Shown: positions 18,145 to 58,800 of the stretch, one piece after another | Position numbering within the stretch: the first letter of the stretch is position 1 | How the letters are laid out: each line of letters begins with the position of its first letter | NCBI GenBank assembly: GCA_916048095.2 | Contig: OU696578.1 | Location: forward strand, 3,222,798-3,286,797 | DNA: 64,000 bases | Direction of reading: 5' to 3' | Source of the DNA: Sacculina carcini | Lineage: Eukaryota > Arthropoda > Thecostraca > Sacculinidae | The notes under the pieces: generated by a model | The model's input: only the letters and a program-made list of their open reading frames with translations | The model's database searches: none | Told to the model about the DNA's origin: nothing | Program-made: the position numbers and the translations under genes

Positions 18145-18255
18145 GTGTATGTGTATGCTCGAATTTCGTCCATGAGAAGCAGGTCACAGCGAGCAGCGTG
18201 GCAGCTATGAGACCCCGCCTCTGAGCGGATAATACTTTCCATGGTGAAGGGCAAC
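18145..18255. repeat. Short dispersed repeat
   Basis: About 65 bp around 'tggcagctatga' and 'gagcggataatactttcc' recur at 26350-26416. No element class can be assigned. Confidence 0.5.
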
Positions 18256-19191
18256 CTGTAGTCATTGTGGACATGTACATCTGCATTCCACTCTGCTAGC
18301 CCCGTGGCAGAACTAGATTTGATTTAGTAAGAAATGGTGATGCTTTGATTGTAAGCCGAGCTGTAAATCAGCCATGCATTCTCAGAAAACAGTCACTCAA
18401 GAGACACTTCGACAGTCAACAATGAACTAAATAATTGCAGAAGAATCTAAGGATGAACCAAGCCTGTGGGTCACTACAAATGACCCCTATGTGAATGCAC
18501 GTGTACACCTACATACATTTAAAACGTGTTTAGGTAGCTTCGATTCGTTTGTATTCGTCTTCGATTAGTTTTTCTTAAATATGCACATGCTCACGAGTAG
18601 AAAAACAAACCACCGATCAACGATTTTATTCGGTTTAATTGCCAAACAAAACTCGTAAAAATAGTCAGAAATACAGGACTGACAACATAAGAGATGAAAA
18701 GGAGGAAAAACGAAAACAGATGGAGCATGCAATGAACACATGTGGAGAACACGCTCAAAACGAAATTCCCAAGAAACTCATGTTTGGGGCCTACAATACG
18801 ACTACACCACAAACACAAAGACAAATACGCACAAAGACAAAAATCGTTCACAAAGACAAATATCACCTAGATAATAGCTCAACGTCTGCAGCTATTTTCC
18901 TGAACAGATACCATTCCCACAACAAAACACAACAAACAATGGAATTGGTCCAAACAACTTCCACTGCAACGAAAATAAGACACCAGAATAAGCACTCAAG
19001 TAAATATAGGCCCCAATAAGACTTATTAAATCAATGTGAACTCAGAATATGACAGCAAGAAACTATTCAAACAACAAATGCAATTTCATAACAGATAATA
19101 ACAGACCCTAGGAGGCATTGAATGCCTTATACGCGTCGCAAGCGTCGAGGTCGCATCTTGGGCCAGGTCGCATCTTGGGCCGTCACACCGT

Positions 19192-20012: not shown

Positions 20013-22731
20013 TTGATGCATAACAGGGGTATGAATTACACAGATCTGAGCTACAATCCTCTTCAAAGCATAGGTGCTTATGATGGTCCATGTGCGGATG
20101 AATTATATTTAAACAGAATGTGCAGCTCCATTCCAGATTGCAAATATATATTGGCCGATGACATCAACATACCAAATAACACCTTTACAATTTCTCACGT
20201 TAATATTGGATAAATTCCCAAAAAAAAATCCAATGCTTTAAAGACTATATTTTATGCCCTTTCCCTAACATTGTTGACGTCATCGGTCTTACTGAAATCC
20301 GACTAGATACTCATCTCACCTCTTTGTATTGTATGCCGGGATATAATCTCTTCACCAATACTAGAAACGTTCACGGGGGAGGCGTGGCGATATACTTCTC
20401 AAATAATCATGATGCTACAGAAAAAAAAAATATAAATTTTTCTTATTCGCACGTTGAAACTCTGGCCGTACAAGCACGTATTAATTATAAAAAATATTTG
20501 TTTATTTGCGTTTATAGACCTCCAAGCGGGACATTTGACGATTTCATCACTACAATGACCAATATTCTTACATATGCACAAGAAAAACAATACAGCGGGA
20601 TATACGTCTTTGGGGATTTCAACTTAAATTTATTAGCATCTAACGACAACAATGTTTTTGATTATATTAATCTAATGTTTTCTTTTTCTCTCTTTCCTCT
20701 TATCAATAGGCCAACAAGAGTGACCGACACTACGGCAACTTTACTTGATCACATATGGTCCTCTCAGCTGGAAAATAACATCGACAATTTTATTATTGAA
20801 ACTGACATTTCTGATCACTTTCCTATTATATCCCAATTTCGATTAACACCTATTAGAAAAAAGTCCGAATATATTCAAAAAAGGGTAATTTCTACAAGCT
20901 CTATGGAAAAATTCATAATTGATCTTGCTGAAGCTGATTGGTATCCGGTATTTATAACAGAAAATGTTATAGAGGCTTATAATATATTCTACGAAAAAGT
21001 TTTACACACTCTTCCAGCAACACTTCCCTGAAAAATAGATCTATCTTAAAAGGAAAAATCAATTATTCCCATATATAACACCTGCACTAAAGGTGAGTAT
21101 TAGAGAAAAACATAGACTAGAACGATTTGCCAAGAAGTGGCCCTTGACATACAAGAAAACATATACCAAATTCAGGAATACGTTAACTTCAACTTTAAGG
21201 GCGGCTAAAAGCAATTATTATAAAAACAATTTCTGCCAAAATCAAGGAAATCCAAAATGTCAATGAGAGTTTATTAATACACTTCTTGGCAGGTCTAAAG
21301 GTCGTAATCCCAAAATTGAGCTGTGTCCGGAATCGTCTAATGTCTCCGTTTCTCTTAATGAACACTTCTTAAAGCATCAAACAGTAATTGACAAGGAAGA
21401 TGACTATAAAAAATATCTACACGCCTCTCCTAATGTTTCGATGTATCTATATCCCACAAATGTTGCTGAAGTTAATCGAATTCTAGTTAATTCTACTTCA
21501 ATCTCTACTTCATTCTACCTGGATATGATGACATACCACCTAGACTGCTGCAACAATCTTCTTCTTTAATATCCTCTCCACTTGCTCATATCATAAACTT
21601 TTCTCTCAAAACAGGGGTTTTCCCGGATCAATTGAAACAAGCCAAAGCTGTTCCTTTATTTAAAACTGGCGAAAGAACTGATATTAACAACTATCGTCCC
21701 ATTTCTATACTTCCGGCCTTTCACAAGCTGTTTGAGAAAGTCATTTCTTCTAGATTAAATAATTAACTTGAAAAAAATAATTTACTCTTTGATCAACAGC
21801 ATGGGTTCAGAAATGGTCGTTCAACGGAATCAGCAGTTCTAAATTTCGTAAATAATATTTATTCATGTCTTGAAAACAAGTTTTTTGTTGCAGGTATCTT
21901 TTTAGATTTTTCGAAAGCGTTCGACAGTTTGGATCACGAAATTCTCTTTAAAAAATTACATAATATAGGGATAAGAGGGGTTCCACTAAGTCTCTTCATA
22001 AGTTATCTTAGTAATAGAAAACAAAGTGTTTTTTGCAATCAGAGTTATTCACAATTTATGGCAATCAGCAAAGGAGTTCCTCAGGGTTCTGTATTGGGTC
22101 CCACACTTTTTCTTATATACATTAACGATATTATAAATTCGAGCAATATATTTGATTTTCAACTTTATGCCGACGATACTGCCCTTATAATAAATAATAA
22201 AGACATTACTCTCTTGCACCAAAATCTAGTTTCCGAACTAATAAATGTAATGGCATGGATTCAAGCTTACAAACTGAGGCTGAACACTGGCTTCAAAATC
22301 AAACTATATTCTGTTTCAGAATAGATCGTTGAGCTACTCCTTGCCACCGGTGCCTATTAATAATGGATTCCTTCTGCAGGTGAAATTTACTGAATTCCTG
22401 GGGGTTACAAATCTAATCTAAATTCGACCAAAATCTAAATTTCAAATATCACATTGATAAAACTTGTACCAAATTATCTAAAATTACTGGGGTTTTGTAT
22501 AGAGTAAGACACCTTTTAACTGCTGAAGCCATGCTCAGTATCTATTATACCCTTTTCTATCCTCATCTTATTTATTGTGTTCCAATTTGGGCATGTACTT
22601 GGCCTTCCTTTTTACATAGAGTGACTCTAGCTCAAAGCAAATTTCAAGCGTTTTTAATGTTCTTGAATCCTTACACATTTAGCCTAGAACAAAAAACTCG
22701 GCGAACCTATCACGAACTTCGAGGTCTGTGA
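20013..22731 (+). pseudogene. CR1-like LINE ORF2 (endonuclease-reverse transcriptase)
   Basis: 20130-20330 gives 'FTISHVNIGSIPKK..' and '..LTEIRLD' across frame changes. 20324-21031 carries the rest of the APE endonuclease: YRPPSGTFDDF, GDFNLNLLA, LLDHIWSS and SDHFPIISQF. Reverse transcriptase follows: the 'YRPISILPAFHKLFEKV' region near 21690, GIFLDFSKAFDSLDHE near 21894-21940, SKGVPQGSVLGPTLF near 22066, and LYADDTALII near 22164. 22495-22731 is the C-terminal tail. At least four stops or frameshifts (for example TGA at 21029, TAA near 21763, stop at 22322) disable it. Together with ORF1 at 16.1-19.4 kb this was one CR1-like element of about 4 kb. Confidence 0.9.
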
Positions 22732-23713
22732 GTACGCCCAATTTCTCCTGAAATAAGCACGTTGTCACGGGAATATGTGTGAGCCATGATACAGGAGGAC
22801 GGTGTAACTTAGTTTGATATTCACTCGGTATCGGAATGTTCATCTCAATCGATGTTGCTAAAGCTCGCCTCGAAAAGGTGGATGCTAATACACGATGTCG
22901 CCGACTGCGCTGATGAGATGGAATTGGATGAAAATTTAATATTCGACGGATACAATGACCTTGTGGTGGGTCACTCTGGTTAAATCAATTTTACCACACA
23001 CAACATAACATGAAACATATGAGACAAGGTTTGGACGCTCAAGAGAGTGTATTCTTGTCCAAACACATTTCATACTTGACGCCTTGGAACATTCTAGTAA
23101 TTTTTGCTCTGGCGTACCAATCAGCGATGGCGTCATTTAATGCAAATATATATAAACATTTAATATAAATCACATATAACAAATTAAACAGTAAATTTAC
23201 AATGGAATTAATTAACATGACATAAAACGTAATACAAATAGCAATAAGCCGAAAACAGTGAATGCCTTGAAACAAGTAACAAATCTTAACGTCTTGATTT
23301 GAACGACATTCATTTGTCATTAAATAAAAATTAAACAAGCAAATACAAATTGAAATACATAAATTTTAATATATATAAATATTGAATGATGAATGAAAAC
23401 GATCAAAAGAATAATTAATAAAAGCATAGACAGACACTACAACATTTTCGAATGAGAATTTTAAGAACGTACGAGTTTTGATGATGTCATTTATTCACGA
23501 GGAAACATTTAGACATATTAAGAAATTATTTATCTCAACCGCAAGTGCTAATTAGTTGTTCAGCACGAGTTTTTATCAGATAATGATTTACGAGGTCACT
23601 AGTATAGTAATTGTGTTAGATGCAGCCATTTCTGAACTGGATTTCAGCTGTGGGACATCGTTCTCACACACTGTCAGTTTAGATTGTGTTCAAGGTGAAA
23701 ACTTGAAAACAAC
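22732..23713. other. Intergenic DNA 5' of the formin-PKC gene
   Basis: 22950-23470 is an inverted copy of the dispersed repeat at 2100-2560. The last 240 bp are unique. TCAGTT at 23674-23679 fits an animal initiator motif 38 bp before the ATG, but no TATA box or downstream element was found, so a promoter is only suggested. Confidence 0.4.
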
Positions 23714-25804
23714 ATGCAATATATTCTGAAGAAGATCAATATTGAGGAGGCGTTTGCCAAACACCTCGCGTGGACCGGTGTTACCGAAAAGGCAGCAAGG
23801 TTATGCGTCCACTATAACAACACTTCAAAGTGGAGCATGCTTTCCAACTGGAAGAAGACCATTCGCCAGTGTCCCGCGTACTGTGTGCGCAATCTCAAAC
23901 AATACTCGGCAACCATGACCACCAAGAAGCCCAGCAAGGTCCTCGCCAAGTGTAGCAAGCATACCACTTTGCTGCAAAACCTGGAGATCTCGCTGCGTAT
24001 GTACAACAGACGTTGGCTTCTGGATTTCGTGGAGCAGCAAGGAATCATTGTTCTGCTCGACTACATGAATATCATTCTGTCGGCCAAAGAACGTCTTGAC
24101 CAAGAAGAGGAGACCACCACTCAAACTTGCTGTATGCCGATATTCTACAGATCAAAACCAAACACCAATAAGTCCATTCTTATTAAAAATGCACACCAGG
24201 TGTTGAAACAATGTGTGCTTGGTATCAAAGCAATAGTGGGAGATAAAGTATCCATCAATAAAATAATCCTGAATCGGGAAAATATCCTAGTGCTGGTACG
24301 TTACGTCTACTTTATCGTACAGGAGTCTTCGGCAACGATCATTATCGATCCAACAGCATCTACGATCATGGGCATTTTAAAAACGTTGGCGATAAACGAC
24401 CCATATGTCCACACTGTGCTTGAAGATTTTCGCTGCAATGATCTCTACACTCGTCAAATGGAAAGATTAAGTGATTTGGTCAATAATTTCGATGAGCCTG
24501 GGCCTGAATCGCCATATATTGAGATGCAAGATCCTGATACCAAAACTGAAACGGTCAGTGCGGACCTGGTGCCTGCGGCGGTGGCGACGGCGGCCAGCTC
24601 AATTGAGGCGGCAACGTGTCCCACCAAGTACTCGCTGGCCGATTTTGAGCTGATTAGCGTAATTGGACGCGGCGGCTATGGCAAAGTGATGATGGTGGAG
24701 CTGCGACGCACTCGGCGCGTGTACGCTATGAAGGTGATCAAGAAGGAGATGCTAACCTGCGACTTTTTTATCAAATCAGTAAAGATCGAAAAGAACGTCC
24801 TTCAGACAGTGTCCAACCATCCATTCCTGGTTGGACTGCACTCGTGCTTTCAGAGTTTCAGTCGGCTGTTTTTCGTGATTGAGCTTGTGAGCGGCGGTGA
24901 CCTCATGTTTCACATGCGTCGCCACGGCAAACTGCCGGAGGAGCACGTCAGGTTCTACTCTGCTGAGATTTGCATAGCGCTCAAATTTCTGCACGAGAAG
25001 GGCATCATCCATCGTGACCTGAAGCCGAAAAATGTGCTGATTGACCACGAGGGCCATATCAAGCTGACGGACTACGGCATATGCAAGGTGGGAATTCGGC
25101 CGGGCGACAGGACATTCACATTCTGCGGCACGCCCGGCTACATGGCACCGGAGATGCTGCGTGGCGAGGGTTACGACTTTAGTGTGGACTGGTGGGCGCT
25201 GGGTGTGCTCATGTACGAGATGATGACAAATGACAATCCGTTCAATATTGGCGATTTTCCTGACTGTACCACTGATAGATTACGTAAACTGTGCTGGATG
25301 TGTAATGCCACCAGGACACTACGCATTCCGCGGTCTTTGTCGGTGGAGACGCGCAACATCCTCAAGGGATTTATCAAGGAACACCCGCTGAAGCGACTGG
25401 GATGTCATTCGGATACCGGTATCCAGGACATACTGGAACACGCGTTCTTTGAGAGCATTGACTGGCAGCTACTGGAGCACAAAGAGCTGACGCCGCCGTA
25501 CAAGCCGTACATCAAGACCAAACGTGACCTGGCCAACTTTCCGCATGCTTTAACGGACCAACCGGTGTGGATGGCACCTGACAGACCAACCAATACACGC
25601 CTTCAATACATCGACCAGAGCAATTTTGACGGATTCGACTATGTCAACCTGTCACTGATAGGTCACACAGAAAGATGTTATACCATCGTTATAATTATAT
25701 CGGTATGTCTTATTATATTATTGATTCAAGCAGCGATGCAGCCAGTGGAGCGGTCACACCGGCCAGGATCAGTACCTCGGCCAGGACCAGAACGTGCCCG
25801 GTGA
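23714..25804 (+). CDS. Chimeric formin GBD/FH3 - atypical PKC kinase
   Basis: One open frame of 696 codons. Residues about 10-270 resemble the GTPase-binding/FH3 region of FMNL/DAAM-type formins: a 'KW' followed by P-x2-Y-x3-L-x2-Y, then KVLAKC..LQNLEISLR..., W101, DF.....VLLDYMN, then FH3-like helices VLKQCVLGIKAIV and TASTIMGILKTLA. Residues 311-650 are an AGC kinase closest to atypical PKC: G-loop GRGGYGKV 318-325, K340, E359, HRDLKPKN 433-440 (D435, N440), DYG 453-455 as in aPKC, activation-loop T469 in TFCGTP, MAPE 477-480, and hydrophobic motif FDGFDY 638-643 with the acidic residue typical of aPKC. The turn-motif Thr is A621. PB1, pseudosubstrate and C1 domains are missing. Residues 656-674 form a hydrophobic, tail-anchor-like segment. 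No intron is needed. All catalytic residues are kept, so an active Ser/Thr kinase is expected. Partner GTPases are inferred. Confidence 0.88.
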   Translation: MQYILKKINIEEAFAKHLAWTGVTEKAARLCVHYNNTSKWSMLSNWKKTIRQCPAYCVRNLKQYSATMTTKKPSKVLAKCSKHTTLLQNLEISLRMYNRRWLLDFVEQQGIIVLLDYMNIILSAKERLDQEEETTTQTCCMPIFYRSKPNTNKSILIKNAHQVLKQCVLGIKAIVGDKVSINKIILNRENILVLVRYVYFIVQESSATIIIDPTASTIMGILKTLAINDPYVHTVLEDFRCNDLYTRQMERLSDLVNNFDEPGPESPYIEMQDPDTKTETVSADLVPAAVATAASSIEAATCPTKYSLADFELISVIGRGGYGKVMMVELRRTRRVYAMKVIKKEMLTCDFFIKSVKIEKNVLQTVSNHPFLVGLHSCFQSFSRLFFVIELVSGGDLMFHMRRHGKLPEEHVRFYSAEICIALKFLHEKGIIHRDLKPKNVLIDHEGHIKLTDYGICKVGIRPGDRTFTFCGTPGYMAPEMLRGEGYDFSVDWWALGVLMYEMMTNDNPFNIGDFPDCTTDRLRKLCWMCNATRTLRIPRSLSVETRNILKGFIKEHPLKRLGCHSDTGIQDILEHAFFESIDWQLLEHKELTPPYKPYIKTKRDLANFPHALTDQPVWMAPDRPTNTRLQYIDQSNFDGFDYVNLSLIGHTERCYTIVIIISVCLIILLIQAAMQPVERSHRPGSVPRPGPERAR

Positions 25805-26643
25805 CATCGGCCGTGTTCAACATTGACAGGTCACATCTCGATCGATGTGTCTCTTGTCCATCTAATATCTAACATCTAGCATCAGCGTTGTGCTTCAAGT
25901 GCAAATCAACGCAACAAATCTGACGGAAGACACGTCATATTTCTACTTCTCTCTCTATCTGTCCTACTCTCTCTATCGTTTGCCGTAATCTCAAGCTGTG
26001 AAAACAGGGCGAGGAGATGAATGTTGGCAGCGGCTATTATTGCCATCTCCACTGTCCTAACACCTTTCCGAGAAGATTTATGACGTCACAATGAACTTGT
26101 GCACATTGCAAAAATATAGCCGATATTGTCGACATTCATGGCGAGCATGAACGAATGTAGTGGGCTTTGAGCTTGCTAGAACAAAAACACTCATTGAACG
26201 GACAATATGAAGATGTGACATTATTTGAATGGGACCAATTTTAATTGAGTGAATGTATCTTAAGTCAGACTGCTCAAGATTAAGTTTGACGAAATTATGA
26301 AAAAACGTTTGCCCACTGATAACAAAGAAAGCAGGCAACAATGAGTAGCTTGGCAGCTATGATACTCCCGCCATATGAGCGGATAATACTTTCCTCTGGG
26401 AAAGGGGGACCTGTAGCCACAGATCAAAATAATTACATCAGCAAGTAGTGTATTTAACCTTTGTATTGTAGCGCCTTCGTCGTCTTGATTTTATTATATT
26501 TTTTATATCTTACTTCGTGCGTTATTCGAAATTGTTTATTATTCATTTGTTTCCTTTTCATCGTTTTTCCGGTATTAATTCACTTCCACCCAAAACATTA
26601 ATATTCTTGTGGGGCAGAATTTGAATATCTTGTTATATATTTA
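25805..26643. other. Intergenic DNA 3' of the formin-PKC gene
   Basis: No gene. 26350-26416 is the second copy of the short dispersed repeat at about 18160. No clear AATAAA was found in the first few hundred bases, so the transcript end is unknown. Confidence 0.4.
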
Positions 26644-27535: not shown

Positions 27536-27695
27536 TGTGTGAAAACTTTTGGCGAAATCCATCGTGAATTGGCAACTATATGTATATTGTATGATTGTGT
27601 TTGGCGCATCGTGTTGTTGTTCGGTGTATCTTGAGTGAGGGAATATATGGTATTGTTTTGAGGTGTTTTGATTACCTACAATAAATATGTCAACA
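27536..27695 (+). repeat. Partial 5' LTR of the plus-strand copia element
   Basis: Matches the minus-strand LTR from 'ttggcgaaatccatcgtgaa' to the terminal CAACA at 27691-27695. The 5' part of the LTR is missing or replaced. Confidence 0.7.
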
Positions 27696-28313
27696 GGTTA
27701 TGGGCCCAGACGGCTTCTGTTTGATGGTGATGCTCAGAATTTTGATTTGTGGGAGACTAAGTTTTTGGGATATCTCAGGATTCAGAAACTCCACCATGTA
27801 GTTGTGCCAGTGGAAGTATGGACAATCTCTACTGATAAAAATGAATTAGTTTTTGCGGAGCTCATACAGTATCTTGACGACAAAAGCCTCTCATTGATAA
27901 TAAGAGAAGCCAAGGATGATGGTGGAAAAGCTCTAAAGATTTTGAGAGAACACTACCGGTCGTGCAGAACACCAAGAATAATTTTATTGTACACGGAACT
28001 TACATCTTTGAAGAAATCAGCAAATGAGGATATGACAGATTACGTCATCCGAGCGGAAAATGCTGCAACTGGTCTGAAAAATGCGGGTGAATTGGTGAGT
28101 GACAATCTTTTGACGGCGATGGTTCTCAAGGGTCTCTCTGCTGACTATCAAACGTTCACAGCAGTGATAACGCAGAAGGAAAAACCGACGACTTTCGCCG
28201 ATTTCAAAGTGGCATTGCGAAGCTTTGAAGAAAATGTCCAGATCAAGGAATTAGATGGCGACACTATTCTGAAAAAAAACTATAGCAGTCAGCGAGGGAG
28301 CGACTGTTGCTGA
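27687..28313 (+). CDS. Copia gag, N-terminal part
   Basis: A 208-codon ORF with a copia capsid (UBN2-like) pattern: RRLLFDGDAQNFDLWETKFL near residues 8-27, then LREHYRSCRTPRIILLYTEL and MVLKGLSADYQTF. Its ATG is in the last nine bases of the LTR, and codons 4-8 are the primer-binding site. The frame ends at 28311-28313, just before the zinc knuckle, which is in another frame. It is a degraded element, so the protein may not be made. Confidence 0.8.
   Translation: MSTGYGPRRLLFDGDAQNFDLWETKFLGYLRIQKLHHVVVPVEVWTISTDKNELVFAELIQYLDDKSLSLIIREAKDDGGKALKILREHYRSCRTPRIILLYTELTSLKKSANEDMTDYVIRAENAATGLKNAGELVSDNLLTAMVLKGLSADYQTFTAVITQKEKPTTFADFKVALRSFEENVQIKELDGDTILKKNYSSQRGSDCC
27696..27710 (+). promoter_or_regulatory. 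Copia primer-binding site (initiator tRNA-Met type)
   Basis: GGTTATGGGCCCAGA immediately follows the LTR's CAACA end. This is the motif used by animal copia elements, complementary to an internal part of initiator tRNA-Met. It lies inside the gag reading frame. Confidence 0.75.
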
Positions 28314-31345: not shown

Positions 31346-32384
31346 TGGATGCGTGTAGAAACGAAAGGGATTGGAAGAATGTAGCTAAAACACTCGGTGT
31401 TAACATAAAACGGTCTTTTACTGGCTGAAATCCAACGAGGATTGCCCAAAACACCGGGGAGGCAATCGCGTGAAAAAAACGCCACAAATGATTAACACAA
31501 TAATATCAGCGGTTGAAAAAACGCCGTCACTCACTCTGACAGACCTGCAGCTCATCATCCACTCGCAGCATGTATATCAGGTGTGCCTAAACACAATCAG
31601 GAACTGGCTTGACGGGGAGTTGTTGTCGCTGAAAGCCTTGCGACCGACGAATGATCGCATGAGCAACGCCGACAATAAGCGAAAAAGGGCCGAATACATG
31701 GAGGAACTCTTCCGTATTCGGTCCGATGGTCGCACGCCAGTGTGGGTGGATGAGACGAACTTCAATTTGTTCTGCAAGCGCAGCCAAGGACGGTCAAAAG
31801 TGGGGAGCAGAGCTGCTGTGGTTCTCCCGGCCAGCAAAGGCACCAATCTGCACATCATTGGCACCATGGCAACAACAATACTCGTCCTCATGTCCACCAG
31901 GCGGGGCTCGTTCAACAAGGAGAGCTGTGCTGAATGCTTTCAGTGTCTGGTGGAGCAGTGTCGCCAAGCTGGAATCGATCGCCCCACGGTAATTTTTGAC
32001 AACGCCCCAGCACACAGTCCACTGGAGGCAGTGTTTGAGGAGCAGCAGGACATTTAGCTGCTCAGAAAGACCCCCTACTCGTACCTGCTCAGTCCTATCG
32101 AGCTTTCATGGAGCTCAATAAAGAGCCACGTGAAAAGAAGTTTAAGGGAGAAAATGCCCGATGTGCTGGCCATGACTCGAGACAACGCCGGCCCGTCCAT
32201 TACCGAGCAGCGGATGCAACTGCTGGAGACGGTCGCTCTCGAGGCGATCAGCCACGTGGATACAAGTCGTATCCAGTGCATTGTATCATACAACGCACCT
32301 GCAGAGCTACGCCAATCGGGTAGAGCGTTACTACGCTGCAGCGTTCCGCGGAGAAGACCTCGTCGAGATTTCTTGACTCATTAA
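31346..32384 (+). pseudogene. Tc1/mariner (IS630-type DDE_3) transposase
   Basis: An N-terminal helix-turn-helix begins at 31346 (MDACRNERDWKNVAKTLGVN) and changes frame by a one-base loss near 31416. The frame then stays open through the first catalytic Asp in VDETNFNLF, KGTNLHIIGTM, and the second Asp in FDNAPAH. A single TAG at 32055-32057 interrupts it before PYSYLLSPIELSW, which carries the catalytic Glu about 33 residues after the second Asp. It ends at 32384. About 345 residues in total, normal for the family. Terminal inverted repeats were not found. Confidence 0.85.
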
Positions 32385-33978: not shown

Positions 33979-36900
33979 AGGAGTCGTGTGCGCGCAGCCG
34001 TACTGTGAACACGTGTTTTTCGGTGCTGGCCGTGACTGCGGCTCCGTGTGTGTTTAGTGATGGGCTTGACAGCTCACCGTGGTAAGCGTTCGCGGCCGCA
34101 TGGGCGGAAGCGATCCATTCAGTGGACACACACGACGGACTCGCGGTGTGCCAGCCGGAGCCGTGAGGCCCTCAGGGCCCCCGCTCTAAACGTTGCAACA
34201 TTTAATACGAGGACTTTGAGGGAAAATTGTCGTCTTAATGAATTATGTAAATTAGCTATAGATTTGAACATTGACATCATCGCCGTCCAGGAGCACAGAC
34301 GAACTGTGAAGGCACCAGCAACGTCCGTCAACGTTCACGGCTGGACTTTCTGGATTGCAACTGCAAACTCTCAAGGCCAAGGTGGTGTTGGCTTATTGTT
34401 GTCGCCGCGTGCCAGGCGAGCTCTCCTCAGCATCGAGTATCCGCACGCGCGAGTCACAACAGCGACATTCCAGCTGAAGACCAACAGATTGCGCATTGCA
34501 AATTGTTATATGCCCACCGCATGTGCAGCCGCACTGGACGAAGCAGAAGAGTGCATAAATGTGCTGACTACGTTTGTGGCCGGCGGTGCAAATCGCGATG
34601 TCACCTGTGTTGTCGGTGACTTCAACGCCGACCTACAAACTGGAGTCAACAACAAGCATGCCTTTTCGCAGTCAAAATCAACGCACACCGACGCAGTGAG
34701 TGATTTCGTGGCTAGCAACGACTTGATCGCTGCAAATGGAGTCATGCGGCAACGGCAAAGCCATATTCCGACATTCTTCGGACCCAATTGCCGCAGGGCT
34801 CGACTGGACTATGTGTTCGTTCAGCGCCAGTGGTGTCGCATACTGCGTAGAGTCTCCCGAATTCGTCCTCGCTGCATTCCATCGGACCATACCATGCTAC
34901 GGTGCTCACTGAGCCTGCGCCTGTGGATGGGCGTCAAACACAGACAACAGCGTCAAATCCAGTGGTCAACACTGAGAAAACCGGCAGCGCGCAGGAGGTT
35001 TATCGGCGCTGTAATCAATCAGCAAAGACAGGGCGACGGAAGCTACACCAGCCTCGCTAAGTCGGTCCTATATGCTGCCGACGTGACCCTCCCCTCACGC
35101 GCGCGAGGGCCCAGGAACGCTCTGTGGGACGACTCTGCCATAGCGACAGAGCGCGTGAAAATACTGCACAGCACCAAACAAGGGTCAGTCTCCCACACAA
35201 ACTCTCTTCACGAAGTTTACGAGCGGCGGCGTAAAGAGCTTATCGACAGCGTGGTAAACGAAATACAGCGACACAGAGAGAATGGGAGGGGTGCAGCGGC
35301 ATGGCAGTGTATTAACACAATTACGGGGCGGAAGAGCAAGCACCCATCACTTTTCAATGCGGAGAACCCCAGTGAGCGCCTGAACAAAGTCCGAGCACAC
35401 TTCAGTGACATCCTCAATACTGAAATGTCAAATGCGTGCTCTCCTTTGCTGGACTTCGGTTCAATATCATCACACAACACGCTGCCAGTTATCAGCACAG
35501 CAATGGCGGTCAACATTGCAGAGCTGAAGCGGGCGTGCGGCACAGGGGCTACAGGCAAGTCGTCCGGAAAAGATGGCATCCCGTCAGAAGTGTGGAAACT
35601 GCCGCAGTTGGCGTCTCTGCTCCTACCACACATCAACGCGGTAGTGCAGCGAGCTGATCCTCCATCGGAATGGTTGTCGTCGCACATAGTGTGCATACCG
35701 AAGAACCCAGGCAGTACAGCACTCGGCGACCAGCGTGGTATCTCTCTGATGTGTGCTGCAGCCAAGCTGTGCAACAGAGTCTTGTTGCAGCGCATAAGGA
35801 GAATACTAGAAGAAAGGTTGCTGAATGTCCAGGCGGGTTTCAGACCTCACAGGTGCACGTCTGAACAAATTGCCACACTTCGTGTTTGTATAGACACCTG
35901 TCGCACGAGAAAAAAGTCACTGTGTGTTGTGTTTGTCGACTTTTTCAAAGCCTTCGATCGAGTAAACCGTGGGTCATTGCAGTCCATCTTGCTCGCCTAC
36001 GGAGTCGACAACACACTGGTCAGCGCCATAATGAGCCTCTACACCAACACCGTAGCACAGGTCAGGGTCGGCAGCGAGTACACCGAGCAGTTTGAGACGT
36101 CAAGCGGTGTACTACAAGGTGACACTCTCGCACCGTACTTGTTCGTTGTAGTCATGGACTACATCATGAGGTGTAGCATCCGGCAGGAGCAGGCATTCAC
36201 TGTGAGAAGGCGGCTCTGTCAGCGGCGACCTGCGGTGAAGCTTGCAGCTCTGGCCTATGCCGACGATCTGGCGCTGCTGTCGGACAACATCGCCGACGCT
36301 CAAAAACAGCTGGCCAGACTGGAGGCGGCCGCCGCGTCTGTGGGTCTGCAGCTCAATGCCTCCAAGTGCAAGGTGCTGTTAGTGGGTGTGCAAAAATCTG
36401 ACAACATTCTGTCTACGAACGGACACCGGATTGACGTCTGCGAGGACTTTGCCTATCTGGGCAGTCAGCTGAAGGACAGTCGGTCGGCGTTCAGACGAAG
36501 AAGAGCACTGGCGTGGATTGCTGCACGGAAACTCCACGGATTTCGGGCATCATCAGCAGCAATATCGGAGAAAGTGCAACTGTTCAGGGCATGTGTTGAG
36601 CCTGTTCTGTTGTACGCAAGCGACACATGGGTGTTGTCTGGCAGTTTGTCTAGCGAAGTCGACGCCGGTCATCGCGCATTGCTCCGGTATTGCTGCAATC
36701 TCGGCTACCCACAGCTGGTATCCAACGACGTGCTCTACAATAAATCTACGAGTCGACCTGTCAGCCAGATGATACGCCGTCTACGCATCGCTCTGCTCCG
36801 TCACGCTGTCACCCACCCGAATACGCCACTGGCCCTTGTGTGTGCGCCCGCCAACAAAGCCTCAGAGCCGCTCAGAGTGGGAGGTGCTCTCACGAAAACA

Positions 36901-37200
36901 TACCTCCAACAGCTGGAAGACGACTGCAGTTTCGCTGGCAAATCTCTTGCGGTCTGCTTGAAGATTGCAAGTGCGAAAGTGTGGCATAATTTATTTAAGA
37001 ATATTTAATTGGGTAGTGCAATTGTATGGTGTTATACTTGTATTGTATTTGTATCGTCTAGTCATTAATAATTATTAATGTGTTTTTATTAGTGTAAGTA
37101 TTGTATTTATTACCCGTCATGTCTTTCGTTATTATATTGTTGCAACAACGTGCTCATGCCTTTTCTCATGGCCTGATAATACACGTATCATCATCATCAC
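33979..37200 (+). mobile_element. Full-length RTE-like LINE insertion
   Basis: The right arm of the inverted repeat holds the uninterrupted site (near 51355-51390), which fixes the ends. The 5' end is at about 33979 after 'catagcacg'. The 3' end is a (TCA)n tail at 37187-37200 before 'atacgggcac'. The length is about 3.2 kb. No clear target duplication is visible. A short triplet tail fits RTE-type elements. Confidence 0.85.
34048..37008 (+). CDS. RTE-like endonuclease-reverse transcriptase
   Basis: An intact 986-codon ORF. An APE-type endonuclease spans residues about 47-285: NVATFNTRTL, the catalytic Glu in QEHR (E82), GDFNADL (D191, N193), RLDYVF and SDH (D280, H281). Reverse transcriptase follows: FVDFFKAFDRVNRG near 630, SSGVLQGDTLAPYLF near 688, and the YADD catalytic box at 737-740. 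After the thumb comes the usual C-terminal tail (LYASDTWVL). Endonuclease and polymerase residues are all present, so it could be active in target-primed reverse transcription. The ATG at 34048 is the first in frame; 34060 is also possible. The clade is assigned from layout and tail, not phylogeny. Confidence 0.9.
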   Translation: MCLVMGLTAHRGKRSRPHGRKRSIQWTHTTDSRCASRSREALRAPALNVATFNTRTLRENCRLNELCKLAIDLNIDIIAVQEHRRTVKAPATSVNVHGWTFWIATANSQGQGGVGLLLSPRARRALLSIEYPHARVTTATFQLKTNRLRIANCYMPTACAAALDEAEECINVLTTFVAGGANRDVTCVVGDFNADLQTGVNNKHAFSQSKSTHTDAVSDFVASNDLIAANGVMRQRQSHIPTFFGPNCRRARLDYVFVQRQWCRILRRVSRIRPRCIPSDHTMLRCSLSLRLWMGVKHRQQRQIQWSTLRKPAARRRFIGAVINQQRQGDGSYTSLAKSVLYAADVTLPSRARGPRNALWDDSAIATERVKILHSTKQGSVSHTNSLHEVYERRRKELIDSVVNEIQRHRENGRGAAAWQCINTITGRKSKHPSLFNAENPSERLNKVRAHFSDILNTEMSNACSPLLDFGSISSHNTLPVISTAMAVNIAELKRACGTGATGKSSGKDGIPSEVWKLPQLASLLLPHINAVVQRADPPSEWLSSHIVCIPKNPGSTALGDQRGISLMCAAAKLCNRVLLQRIRRILEERLLNVQAGFRPHRCTSEQIATLRVCIDTCRTRKKSLCVVFVDFFKAFDRVNRGSLQSILLAYGVDNTLVSAIMSLYTNTVAQVRVGSEYTEQFETSSGVLQGDTLAPYLFVVVMDYIMRCSIRQEQAFTVRRRLCQRRPAVKLAALAYADDLALLSDNIADAQKQLARLEAAAASVGLQLNASKCKVLLVGVQKSDNILSTNGHRIDVCEDFAYLGSQLKDSRSAFRRRRALAWIAARKLHGFRASSAAISEKVQLFRACVEPVLLYASDTWVLSGSLSSEVDAGHRALLRYCCNLGYPQLVSNDVLYNKSTSRPVSQMIRRLRIALLRHAVTHPNTPLALVCAPANKASEPLRVGGALTKTYLQQLEDDCSFAGKSLAVCLKIASAKVWHNLFKNI

Positions 37201-45304: not shown

Positions 45305-47383
45305 TCACATGCCTGTACCAGAACTTGCCAGATGATGTTCTGTGTGGATTAACTGTTCTGGACTATATCTCTGTGGCGGTTCATTAGTGGCCACAGACTG
45401 ATAACGGATGTTATATTGTTCATTGACTTGTGGCTGTGTATAACTCTCCACAGGCTGCGCGTAACAGTTGAACTGTTGCTGGCTTATTTCATCAGTCGGA
45501 GCACGGCTTTCCTGGGGCTGGTCGTAGTGGGAGAATTGCTGTTGGCTGTTTGTTTGGGGAATTAGATAACTGCTCACATTTTGCTGCAAGCAGTTTGACT
45601 GTTCCTGATCGTTTGATTGTGGAGAAGCCGCCAGTTGCTGCACATAATACTCCGTCACAAGTTGATAATTTGCCTCTGGCAATACATAACTTGCCAGAGG
45701 CTGTACGTAATAGATGAGCTCTTGTTGGACATTTGTCTGAGGAGACTGGGGCGTCCCCAGAGGTTGCGCCAAGTTGTTATAGCACTGATGTTGGTCACTT
45801 CTTTGTGTCTCACAAGGAATTTCCGAGGTGTTGTTCAACTGCTGTTCATTTGAATGAGGCTGGTCATAGCTGGACATACTCTGCCCGTAACATCCTTGCT
45901 GCTGATTATCTGACTGTGCTGCTAAATATTCTTCTAGAGAATACACGTAGCAGTTGAACTGCTGCTGAAGGCTTGCTGGTGGCAGCGCATATCCCGCCAG
46001 AGACTGTGAGTTGTAATAGTTCATTTGCTGTTCACTTGTATATGACACATCGTAGTTCTCCTGGGTCTGCTCGTAATTGGTAAACTGCTGTTGCTCGTTG
46101 GCTTGTAGCGGTTCATGAGTAGGAATTGTTTGTTGTATGTAATTGATATGTTCTGTGTAACTTGTTGATGCTGGCTCAGAACTTGCTACACTCTGCTCCT
46201 GGAAGTTGAGCTGCTGTTTGATGTTTGTCTGAGACGGTTGATAAGTTCCCAGTGGTTGATTAGTATTTTTGAGCTCCTGTTGGATGTTGTTTTGAGGCAG
46301 TTCGTCATTAATCACAGGTTTTGGTACGTAGCTGGTTTGTTCTGTACCATTTGCCTGTGGCGGTACATCTCCCGCCAGATGGTCCACTTGATAGTTGAAT
46401 TGCTGATGTTGAATCGTCTGTGGTGGAGCGTAATTCTCCAGTGGATAGACATAGCAGCAAAACTGCTGCTCGTAGTTCGCCAAGTGCGGTTCACATCCCG
46501 CGAGAGGCTGTGAGTTGTGATAGTTGAGACTTTTATGTGAATGATCGTAGCTAGCTTGGAGCTGATCTGAGTGGTAATACCGCTGGTGGTCGTTGGACTG
46601 TGGCAGTTCATTGCTTGTAACAGGCTGTTGTGCATAGTTGACCTGCTCCGAGTAATTAGTCATTGGTGGTTCATAGCTCTCTACAGGTTGAGCTTGACTG
46701 TTGAACTCTTGAGAGAGGCTTGTCTGATATGTTTGATGATCCCCCAGAGGCTGCTGCAAGTGTTTGAACTGATCTTGACAATAATTTTTCTGCACGTGGG
46801 CGTATATCTGTTCTTCATTATCATGCTGAGGAACGGCGCTTGTCAGTTGATGTTCGTAGGAGACTTGTTCTTGATCTTGAGCTGTCTCTGCAGCTTCCAA
46901 ACTTGTTATTGGTTGAACAAAGTTGGATAACTTTAGTTCACTTGGTTGTTGCTGAGCATTGCTCGCTTGTGGCTGCTCGATGTGATTGAACTCCTGTTGG
47001 ATGTTGTTTTGAGGCAGTTCAGTATTAATTACAGGTTGTGGTACGTAGATGGTTTGATCTGTACCATTTTCCTGTGGAGGAGCATATCCCGCCTGAGGCT
47101 CCACAAGATAGTTAAGTTGTTGATGCTCACTAGTCTGTGTAGGAGCGTTGATGTCCAGTGGATTTACGTAGCAGCAGAACTGCTGCTCGTAGCAGACCTG
47201 TGGGGGAGTATATCCCACCAGAGGCTGCACGTAATAATCTGTCACCAGTTGGTAGTTTGCCTCTGGCAATATATATGTTGCCAGAGGTTGCACGTAATAG
47301 TACAACGGTGACTGGATGTTTTCCAACGGTAGGTTGTAATCTACCATTGGCGGTATGTAGTTGAGATGCGCATAGAAGGTCAT
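45305..47383 (-). CDS. Q/Y/P-rich protein of about 33 repeats of 21 residues
   Basis: An intact 692-codon ORF of unknown function. Almost the whole protein is a 21-residue periodic repeat. The clearest units are near the N-terminus: YYVQPLATYILPEANYQLV, then YYVQPLVGYTPPQVCYEQQF, then CYVNPLDINAPTQTSEHQQ. The consensus is roughly aromatic-Y-V-x-P-L-x2-Y-x-P-P-Q-x4-Q-Q-x2. The motif FCCYV occurs twice, and Q, Y, P, N and S dominate. No signal peptide, membrane segment or known domain is visible. Start 47383 is supported because the broken paralogue at 12855 shares the ATG and leader. A possible AATAAA lies 206 bp past the stop. It might be a structural, adhesive or condensate-forming protein. 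This is inference from composition only. Confidence 0.75.
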   Translation of the reverse strand: MTFYAHLNYIPPMVDYNLPLENIQSPLYYYVQPLATYILPEANYQLVTDYYVQPLVGYTPPQVCYEQQFCCYVNPLDINAPTQTSEHQQLNYLVEPQAGYAPPQENGTDQTIYVPQPVINTELPQNNIQQEFNHIEQPQASNAQQQPSELKLSNFVQPITSLEAAETAQDQEQVSYEHQLTSAVPQHDNEEQIYAHVQKNYCQDQFKHLQQPLGDHQTYQTSLSQEFNSQAQPVESYEPPMTNYSEQVNYAQQPVTSNELPQSNDHQRYYHSDQLQASYDHSHKSLNYHNSQPLAGCEPHLANYEQQFCCYVYPLENYAPPQTIQHQQFNYQVDHLAGDVPPQANGTEQTSYVPKPVINDELPQNNIQQELKNTNQPLGTYQPSQTNIKQQLNFQEQSVASSEPASTSYTEHINYIQQTIPTHEPLQANEQQQFTNYEQTQENYDVSYTSEQQMNYYNSQSLAGYALPPASLQQQFNCYVYSLEEYLAAQSDNQQQGCYGQSMSSYDQPHSNEQQLNNTSEIPCETQRSDQHQCYNNLAQPLGTPQSPQTNVQQELIYYVQPLASYVLPEANYQLVTEYYVQQLAASPQSNDQEQSNCLQQNVSSYLIPQTNSQQQFSHYDQPQESRAPTDEISQQQFNCYAQPVESYTQPQVNEQYNIRYQSVATNEPPQRYSPEQLIHTEHHLASSGTGM

Positions 47384-56359: not shown

Positions 56360-57133
56360 ATGTGCGACCGACAGAGCACTTGTGCTCAAGGCGCACAAAT
56401 GAGGGTAAATTGGAAGGATGTGGCCCACTCATTGGGAGTCAACAGCAGCACAGCTTATAAGTGGTTGAGAAAAGGAACAATTCAAGCAAAACCAAAAGGT
56501 GGCTCAAAGTCAATAAAAACTGCAGAAATGATTGATAACATTTTGTCCACGATTAAGGAGAATCCGTCGATCACGTTGCGCGAGCTGAAAGACATGATCC
56601 AGGCAGAGTTAAATGTACAAGTGTGCATTAATACAATAAAAAATTGGATGGATGGATAGCTGATAACTCTGAAGGATGTGAGGCCCTGCATGCAAAATAT
56701 GAACCGTGCAGAAGTAAACGAAGGCAGAAAAGTGTACATCAATAAATTATTTGAAGAGCGTTCTGAAGGAAGGACGCTCATATACATCAACGAGACGAAT
56801 TTCAACTTGTTTTGTAGGCGTCGCGAGGGAAGATCGAGGATCGGTACAAGGGCAGAAGTGGTGACCAACTCAACAAAAGGCTGCAATATCCATTGTATTG
56901 GAGTCATGACTAGCACTGTCATGTTGAGATTTGAGACACGCAGGGGCTCTTTCAAGGCAGCAGATATCAACGCCTGGTTCAGGCAGCTGGTTGACCAGTG
57001 TATTGCCGACGGTGTTTTCAAGCCTACTTTTATATATGACAACGCACCGGCACATTCCTCCGTTAAGTCAGTGATTCAGCCAGATGAAGATGTCAGGCTG
57101 CTGAGGCTGGCACCGTATTCATACTTACTGAAC
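56360..57133 (+). pseudogene. Tc1/mariner-type transposase, copy 2 (truncated)
   Basis: An N-terminal helix-turn-helix (VNWKDVAHSLGVNSSTAYKW) is followed by NTIKNWMDG and an in-frame TAG at 56657-56659, then the catalytic core. The first catalytic Asp is changed to Asn (INETNFNLF, codon AAC at 56789-56791). The second Asp (YDNAPAH) is kept. The ORF resembles the transposase at 31.3-32.4 kb. It is cut at about 57133, right after PYSYLLN, so the catalytic Glu is missing. Inactive. Confidence 0.85.
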
Positions 57134-58800
57134 CGAGAAAAGAGGCACTGGTGTACGAGGGACATATATACAAGGGAAAGTGGTAGGTGAGCACATAAAC
57201 ATACACAGTTATACACAGACATACACATGTACACAAATACATTGACGATAACGTAAACATGAGAAAGACAAGCAAGTGGGCATCAAGCAGACGGACATAC
57301 ACACCAGGGACATGCACGCATGGGATATACACGCACCGTCGTAATATACTTTTCCAGATGATTAGTGTACGCCGGTGACTATTTCCACCGACCACCAAAA
57401 CAATGCCACGACCGTACGTACAGGTGGGGTGAGCACACAGACATACACGGACGTCGTCCGATCAAATACACGCGTCAGGCAAACACCGGGGGTTTCACTG
57501 TCACCAAGACATCAGGCAAACACTGTCGCGGCGGATCACACGATTGAAATGTACATCGAAAATAATAACAGGAATAAAATGTTTCAACATACATTTTTCT
57601 TGGCCCACATTTTTTAAGTTTGGTCCTGCGGCCCCTCAAGAAAATCTCATGGCCCATGTTGAGAACCACTGGTCTAAACCACTAGAAAACGTAAATCACG
57701 AATCATTTTAGGAAAATGTCACTAAGAAAAAAGTTCCAGAAGAAGAAAGTGGCCAAAACATATTTCAGCAGCTGAACCCGAAAACTATGTCAAGTGATTG
57801 GGCTTAGCTCCGATTCAAGGTTAATATTTAAATAAACTATATAGAATTAATTTGTTTTATTTATGTATTTCAATTAACTTATGTAAGCTCAGGTAGCTGG
57901 CAGGGGAAATTCGTTTTCAGTAACAGACCTTCCACCGCAAGCCCAATATGCAGTGTGTGGTTGAATTCAACAAAAACAAATATATGCACTATAAACACAT
58001 GAATACGACGACGCTACATGACGACACAACACAACTCCACGAACACGGTTCTCGCTGGCCAACTGCCCCGAAACATGAAACACTTCAGCGTCCGACCGTT
58101 GTGTGCATCACTCATTCAAACGAAGCCAAATGGCGTGAAACCTCTGCATGAAATGCAGCACACACCATGGTATCCTCCCATTAAGACACCCAAACATATC
58201 CTATCCTCCCAAATATTACGCATGAAAACGACACTGAAACCACAATATTTATCCTGTCATCGGCAAGGATTTTTTATGCATCTCCCAAGTGTAAATGTTA
58301 ACATTTTCACGGCTTGCCTTAATTTGATATTAAATGAAATTTGATATGCAATTCAACATGATTTAATTATCTGCAATGATGCCGTTCAGGTCTTCATACA
58401 GGCGCAGCGAGATATGAAGGAATCCATGTATGGAGAAAATGCCGTTTGAATTGAGTGGCCGGATCAGCGTGATTGGCGGAATGTTTAGAAATATTTCACA
58501 TGTAAAGCCATGCTCTACGTCACAGCCGCATTTGTTCATCAATTACCAAGCTGTTTTACCAATTAACATTAAACTAACATTCATTCATGGGCTCATAGAT
58601 TATCAGAACAGCAGCAAATCAACAACAACATGAATCTTGACAACAGAATAAAGATTGCATCAACATATAGACAACAACGGTGTAACGGCTGAGACAGACG
58701 CATTATATTTCCGCATTTGCAACAATATAACTATATAAAATGCAAGAGCAGACATCAAATTATCTCATCTAGGTATTCCCCTCTGGACGCTGCACCATAA
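57134..58800. other. Non-coding DNA with a hAT-type end near 57665
   Basis: At 57598-57669 'ggcccacattttttaag' to 'gttgagaaccactg' is a hAT-like right end (reverse of CAGTGGTTCTCAAC). The rest shows no recognised gene. Confidence 0.4.

Follow-up and report, generated by a model that had tools for sequence, protein, structure and literature searches.

A single intronless open reading frame of 696 codons occupies positions 23714-25804 of the forward strand of the Sacculina carcini DNA analysed here (the window, 64,000 nucleotides; C10:3222798-3286797 of the searched genome, where C-numbers are contig labels and L-numbers fetched loci). Inspection of the open reading frames agreed with the initial annotation, which had placed one continuous frame here: it starts with ATG and is preceded by in-frame stops. 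The gene and its immediate surroundings comprise the following features.

23714..25804, +: frame encoding GBD, linker and aPKC kinase, 696 codons, intronless (open frame and Pfam domains)
23735..24301, +: FMNL-type Drf_GBD and first armadillo-like helices, residues 8-196 (Pfam E 1.9e-10; family profile)
24530..24625, +: remnant of the post-C1 aPKC linker, residues about 273-304 (blastp against the canonical aPKC exon, L019)
24647..25450, +: aPKC-type kinase domain, residues 312-579, with K340, E359, D435, N440, D453 and activation-loop T469 present (Pfam, PDB, family alignment)
25451..25651, +: AGC C-terminal tail, with Ala621 in place of the turn-motif Thr and the acidic hydrophobic motif FDGFDY retained (family alignment)
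25679..25801, +: C-terminal extension containing a hydrophobic stretch, which probably arose by read-through into a former 3' UTR (copy comparison)
23471..23713, +: upstream stretch common, in whole or in part, to other family copies; 5' UTR or promoter (blastn against family loci)
22647..26467, +: unit common to the C4, C26 and C25 copies (DNA comparison, 6 copies)
26327..26422, no strand assigned: 96-bp repeat past the frame end, with a diverged copy at 18177-18264 (comparison with family loci)

A formin-type GTPase-binding module joined to an aPKC kinase

When the first 300 amino acids were scanned separately against Pfam, Drf_GBD scored 41 bits (cut-off 30.1), and the domain was likewise matched in 17/17 family N-termini scanned (E <= 0.01). 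The module is of the FMNL type. The best PDB matches of the window N-terminus are FMNL2 (E 2.4e-8) and FMNL1 (E 7.3e-5), and a profile built from the 17 family N-termini matches the PDB chains of FMNL1 (E 4.4e-13) and FMNL2 (E 2.7e-11); the matches to Diaphanous are far weaker (0.81-0.97). This family profile match stops at residue 219 of 433 in the FMNL1 chain; in the window N-terminus, detection is confined to the GBD and the first armadillo helices, and armadillo repeats 4-5 were not detected. The N-terminus had been described as a formin GBD/FH3 region: the Pfam search returned the GBD and left FH3 (PF06367) unmatched, and that label was too generous because the FH3 part is only partly detectable. 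A structure model of the GBD from a two-row alignment reached a pLDDT of 40.7, too poor for use.

The identification of the second half as an atypical PKC catalytic domain was upheld. Pfam Pkinase matches with an E-value of 1.5e-64, whereas Pkinase_C scores under its family cut-off; the best PDB match is PKC iota at 448 bits, against 324 bits for PKC beta. Among the best 120 of 4,960 protein matches, the window kinase is 53-63% identical to animal aPKCs, with one shorter match at 70%. The usual aPKC regulatory domains are absent, as had been proposed: up to an E-value of 10 in Pfam, the window protein has no match to PB1 (PF00564), C1 (PF00130), FH2 (PF02181) or FH3. Joining of an FMNL-type GTPase-binding module to an aPKC kinase in one frame is therefore confirmed as real.

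Across 39 distinct kinases, comprising 38 of the family and L019, Lys340, Glu359, Asp435 and Asn440 are kept in every one and Asp453 in 38, and six carry DYH instead of DYG. The turn-motif Thr is found in 36/37 kinases with a letter at that position, the window (Ala621) being the sole exception; Ala also stands there in the C4 and C26 relatives. At the acidic position of the hydrophobic motif (FDGFDY in the window), 36 kinases have a letter, which is D in 33 of them and E in 2.

As described in the portion of the FMNL2 study available to us (PMC4432619), K73 and E111 of FMNL2 touch Cdc42, E311 and D360 in armadillo repeats 4-5 make further contacts, and the whole GBD-FH3 is proposed as the binding unit. 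The basic patch gives an offset of +2 between paper and chain numbering, and on that basis R51 and E91 of the window protein, both invariant in 17/17 family N-termini, are the counterparts of K73 and E111. FMNL2 H222 aligns with window position 165, which is basic in 11/17, and the repeat 4-5 contact positions lie past the detectable domain. The likeness to a Rho-family effector is thus one at residue level.

A large and varied family in the genome

The genome searched comprises 264.4 Mb in 43 contigs, and all counts from its profile searches are lower bounds: 130 of 712 candidates were scored with the kinase profile, 62 of 581 with the window protein and 147 of 147 with Drf_GBD. The last search gave at least 147 Drf_GBD matches at E <= 10, 131 of them above the family cut-off; the same profile had no match in 14 control genomes, all prokaryotic. 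A kinase match lies downstream of 82 of the 147 GBD matches, on 20 contigs and often in tandem, when both are required to be on the same strand, within 9 kb and in open frames of about equal length (within 60 aa). This count drew on 101 kinase places rather than on all 260 rows of the two kinase searches, and four of the 82 pairs (C20) have a GBD below the cut-off. The PKC type of the kinase was verified in the fetched loci and, for the other loci, is taken from position and frame.

In the fetched loci, 21 frames, the window included, hold at least part of the GBD and of the kinase together. Their order is GBD, Ser/Pro-rich linker and then one, two or three kinases in a single frame; the kinase-profile search listed frames with up to four kinase matches (C24, 2,738 aa), the longest frames reaching 2,897 aa. 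Stops are present in some family copies. One damaged GBD-kinase copy, at C8:6391830-6393950, shares its contig with the canonical aPKC at C8:6620142, at a distance of about 226 kb. In L028 and L027 (C20 and C24) the aPKC linker is repeated inside single proteins, with nine matches in L028, from which we infer that the linker itself evolves by internal duplication.

The remaining 65 GBD matches include short frames (C8, 274-385 aa), 631-aa frames (C18) and double-GBD frames (C9). Among the places entered, Drf_GBD genes without a kinase were seen on C9 (7484654, 7647465, 7674576), C18, C8 and C32, some with a double GBD and some short, and a 1-kb piece of one C9 GBD gene carries a Ser/Pro-rich stretch. 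The GBD expansion is perhaps broader than the kinase family alone.

The kinase half derives from the genome's own aPKC

Locus L019, on C8, is the last exon of a canonical aPKC and holds C1, linker and kinase together. By blastp, the family linker matches this exon from the last C1 residues on. In the clearest copies the match begins at position 32-41 of the 120 residues compared and in others later; in the window it begins at 92, with an E-value of only 0.012, compared with values down to 1e-25 in other copies. The borrowed sequence begins where C1 ends, and the family accordingly lacks PB1, pseudosubstrate and C1.

A 51-row kinase tree, from which split or partial kinases are omitted, places the 41 family rows in one clade (100/99), sister to L019; these rows represent 38 distinct kinases, because three L006 rows are the same places as three L028 rows, and the counts over distinct kinases leave these three out. 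Together, the family and L019 fall in a wider group (97/99) that also contains P0003 and Pollicipes pollicipes, a goose barnacle. Among 120 proteins listed, ranked by likeness to the window, these two are also closest to L019, at 87% for P0003 (a sequence of 'lgn' source, taken as assembled sequence-archive reads) and 81% for Pollicipes pollicipes, which points to a probable barnacle origin of the genome. The window row has a long branch (0.38). The kinases of the chimeric family have one origin, in the 3' portion of the aPKC gene of the same genome. By eye, the GBD clades agree with the kinase clades, as would follow from joint inheritance of both halves. At C21:5685680-5689690, the GBD of an ordinary formin is seemingly split into three consecutive pieces in short frames. 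Two of the pieces are below the cut-off; the split suggests that introns interrupt ordinary formin genes here but not the family.

Both halves are constrained in the copies examined

In comparisons of the window with 22 family GBDs, dN/dS was 0.31-0.55; with 40 family kinase rows it was 0.34-0.64, and with L019 0.29. One-sided site tests for the window gave p<0.001 for 21/22 GBDs and 36/37 distinct kinases. Among deep pairs, defined by a synonymous difference of at least 0.15 per site, the median dN/dS was 0.35 both for GBDs (n=211; p<0.001 in 205) and for kinases (n=657; p<0.001 in 644); the p-values of all these pair tests are indicative, because the pairs share ancestry and are not independent. 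For close relatives the ratios were 0.57-0.74 (GBD) and 0.46-0.55 (kinase) against nine C4 copies and 0.44-0.50 (GBD) and 0.63-0.71 (kinase) against two C26 copies. The GBD comparison with C4 involves about 24 nonsynonymous to 10 synonymous changes and at that depth is not clearly apart from drift. The openness of the frame was assessed separately. If the frame drifted with 0.06 changes per site, a value close to half the kinase dS measured against the C4 copies, about 5 stops would be expected and it would stay open with P 0.006 (0.009 when simulated); at 0.12 changes per site these values become about 10 stops and 3.6e-5. Sequence comparison thus shows purifying selection on both halves in the copies examined.

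Nearest copies, shared DNA and surroundings

Nine C4 copies (9301906-9494120) are 88-90% identical to the window across all 696 residues; for two C26 copies the figure is 88-89% across residues 1-661, and for a single C25 copy, which carries a TGA, 85% across residues 1-660. At the DNA level, all six copies from C4, C26 and C25 that were compared share a sharp end with the window at 26467, and five of them also share the stretch from 22647 (or 22721) to 22962. Positions 22963-23428 of the window copy are inserted sequence. More distant family copies share about 23471-25660 with the window. The 96-bp repeat lies 523 bp past the frame end in the window and 45-251 bp past it in eight other family loci; it may represent either a 3' element common to these loci or a small repetitive element. 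No terminal inverted repeats of the shared unit were found, and the unit holds no further frame of at least 100 aa.

All nine C4 copies have the hydrophobic C-terminal tail; both C26 copies are in a different frame there, and the window differs from the C4 copies by 4-6 nonsynonymous to 1 synonymous change. A membrane anchor formed by this stretch is not supported, because the C26 frame differs and the changes against C4 are mostly nonsynonymous.

Remnants of LINE-type and copia-type retroelements and of a DDE transposase lie around the gene (20324-21031, 27687-28313, 34048-37008, 31470-32057 and 56678-57190). Elsewhere in the window, the reverse strand at 45305-47383 carries a 692-codon frame that is Gln/Tyr/Pro-rich and contains repeats, with no Pfam match at E <= 0.001.

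Discussion

We describe a family of genes in which a formin-type GBD precedes an aPKC kinase. aPKC is a deeply conserved polarity kinase that is restrained by its own N-terminal half and by Par6-Cdc42. Like PKC iota/zeta and Drosophila aPKC, the family has the DYG motif, the acidic hydrophobic motif and a linker from an aPKC exon of its own genome; unlike them, it has no PB1, pseudosubstrate or C1 and carries the GBD at the N-terminus instead, and the window and its C4 and C26 relatives have no turn-motif Thr. With FMNL1/2/3 it shares, by profile, the N-terminal GBD and first armadillo helices, but the window protein has neither FH2 nor a complete FH3 and carries a kinase. PKM zeta, a brain aPKC, also dispenses with the regulatory half and is not known to have a replacement module, whereas the family kinases add one of GTPase-binding type. 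PKN and ROCK are AGC-related kinases governed by Rho, with the kinase beside a Rho-binding part as in this family; PKN uses HR1 repeats and ROCK a coiled-coil, and neither is known to use a formin GBD. The window protein also lacks the MGxxxS start reported as a myristoylation motif in the FMNL2 text available to us (PMC4432619).

The search for the same architecture found many copies in this genome and none elsewhere in the proteins searched. Among the best 120 of 4,960 full-protein matches (about 7,990 candidates scored), none had Drf_GBD in its Pfam list; a profile of 14 N-termini, again with about 7,990 candidates scored, returned a single FMNL-like protein at E 0.11; and the window N-terminus alone, compared with 5.8 billion proteins, gave 0/2,988 candidates at E <= 0.001. 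A viral origin was considered and rejected, as no relative appeared among viral contigs, a set that may not include records close to the genome of the window. Kinase families are reported, in the part of the genome paper available to us, as the most striking expansions in the genome of Sacculina carcini, a rhizocephalan barnacle (PMC9582164). A term search of the main text of that paper found no 'PKC' and no 'formin', and in a Peltogaster transcriptome paper (PMC9664023) the main text, searched in the same way, contained none of 'kinase', 'PKC' and 'formin'. The GBD-kinase family may be the identity of those kinase expansions.

The model that we consider probable, judging from the sequences, is a lineage-specific, PKM-like aPKC family that would be free of the usual autoinhibition and placed by a Rho-family GTPase. 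The catalytic half of the host aPKC, from the end of C1 on, has been separated from PB1 (which binds Par6), pseudosubstrate and C1 and joined in one frame to an FMNL-type GTPase-binding module, and the chimera has spread and diversified into many genes. With those three elements gone, the kinase would lack the usual aPKC autoinhibition and resemble PKM zeta. An active Rho-family GTPase would recruit it, through the GBD, to membranes or to sites of actin organisation, and the Par6 step would thereby be bypassed; copies with several kinase domains would be multi-headed versions. The direct GTPase control of a polarity kinase put forward in the initial annotation would fit this model and is, like it, an inference.

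The GBD may instead no longer bind a GTPase and serve as a dimerisation or docking scaffold for constitutively active kinases. The short detectable armadillo part, the undetected counterparts of the FMNL2 repeat 4-5 contacts described in the accessible text of PMC4432619 and the variation at the H222 position all favour this reading; the invariance of the predicted GTPase-facing R51 and E91 in 17/17 N-termini, and a GBD constrained as much as the kinase, make it rather unlikely. A further reading takes the copy number as a product of transposition rather than of host benefit, with the gene as cargo of an element that is mobile or selfish. In keeping with it are the spread of GBD-kinase frames over 20 contigs, the same 3' end of the unit at several places, the 96-bp repeat near that end and the retroelement and transposase remnants around the gene. 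Yet no terminal inverted repeats were found, the unit holds no other frame of at least 100 aa, many copies stand in tandem arrays as from unequal crossing-over, and both domains are under purifying selection in the copies examined, so that we regard this reading as improbable.

Decay would offer another account, with the window gene a retrocopy or chance open frame that yields no working protein. Its lack of introns, its rapid change, the loss of its turn-motif Thr and the stops in some relatives could all be read in this way. We nevertheless find it very improbable, given 696 codons that drift would leave open with the low probabilities calculated above, dN/dS well under 1 in deep comparisons and retained catalytic residues. 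That two adjacent genes or an assembly join were misread as one gene has a negligible chance of being correct, as the 21 frames with at least part of both domains are scattered over many sites of the genome. The existence of independent copies also led us to reject an assembly error or an oddity present in one copy.

The GTPase-placed aPKC family that we favour, if true, would represent a new way of wiring an old signalling enzyme. The regulatory half of a polarity kinase has been exchanged and the exchange multiplied to dozens of genes, which amounts to a natural experiment on rewiring. On a wider reading, which as a whole we hold to be unlikely and offer as speculation, this parasitic barnacle would have evolved a large, rapidly changing repertoire of aPKC kinases, directed by GTPases and free of autoinhibition, with one or several heads, which uncouple polarity signalling from the Par6/Par3 complex and may serve the lineage's own biology, such as invasive root-like growth inside the host.
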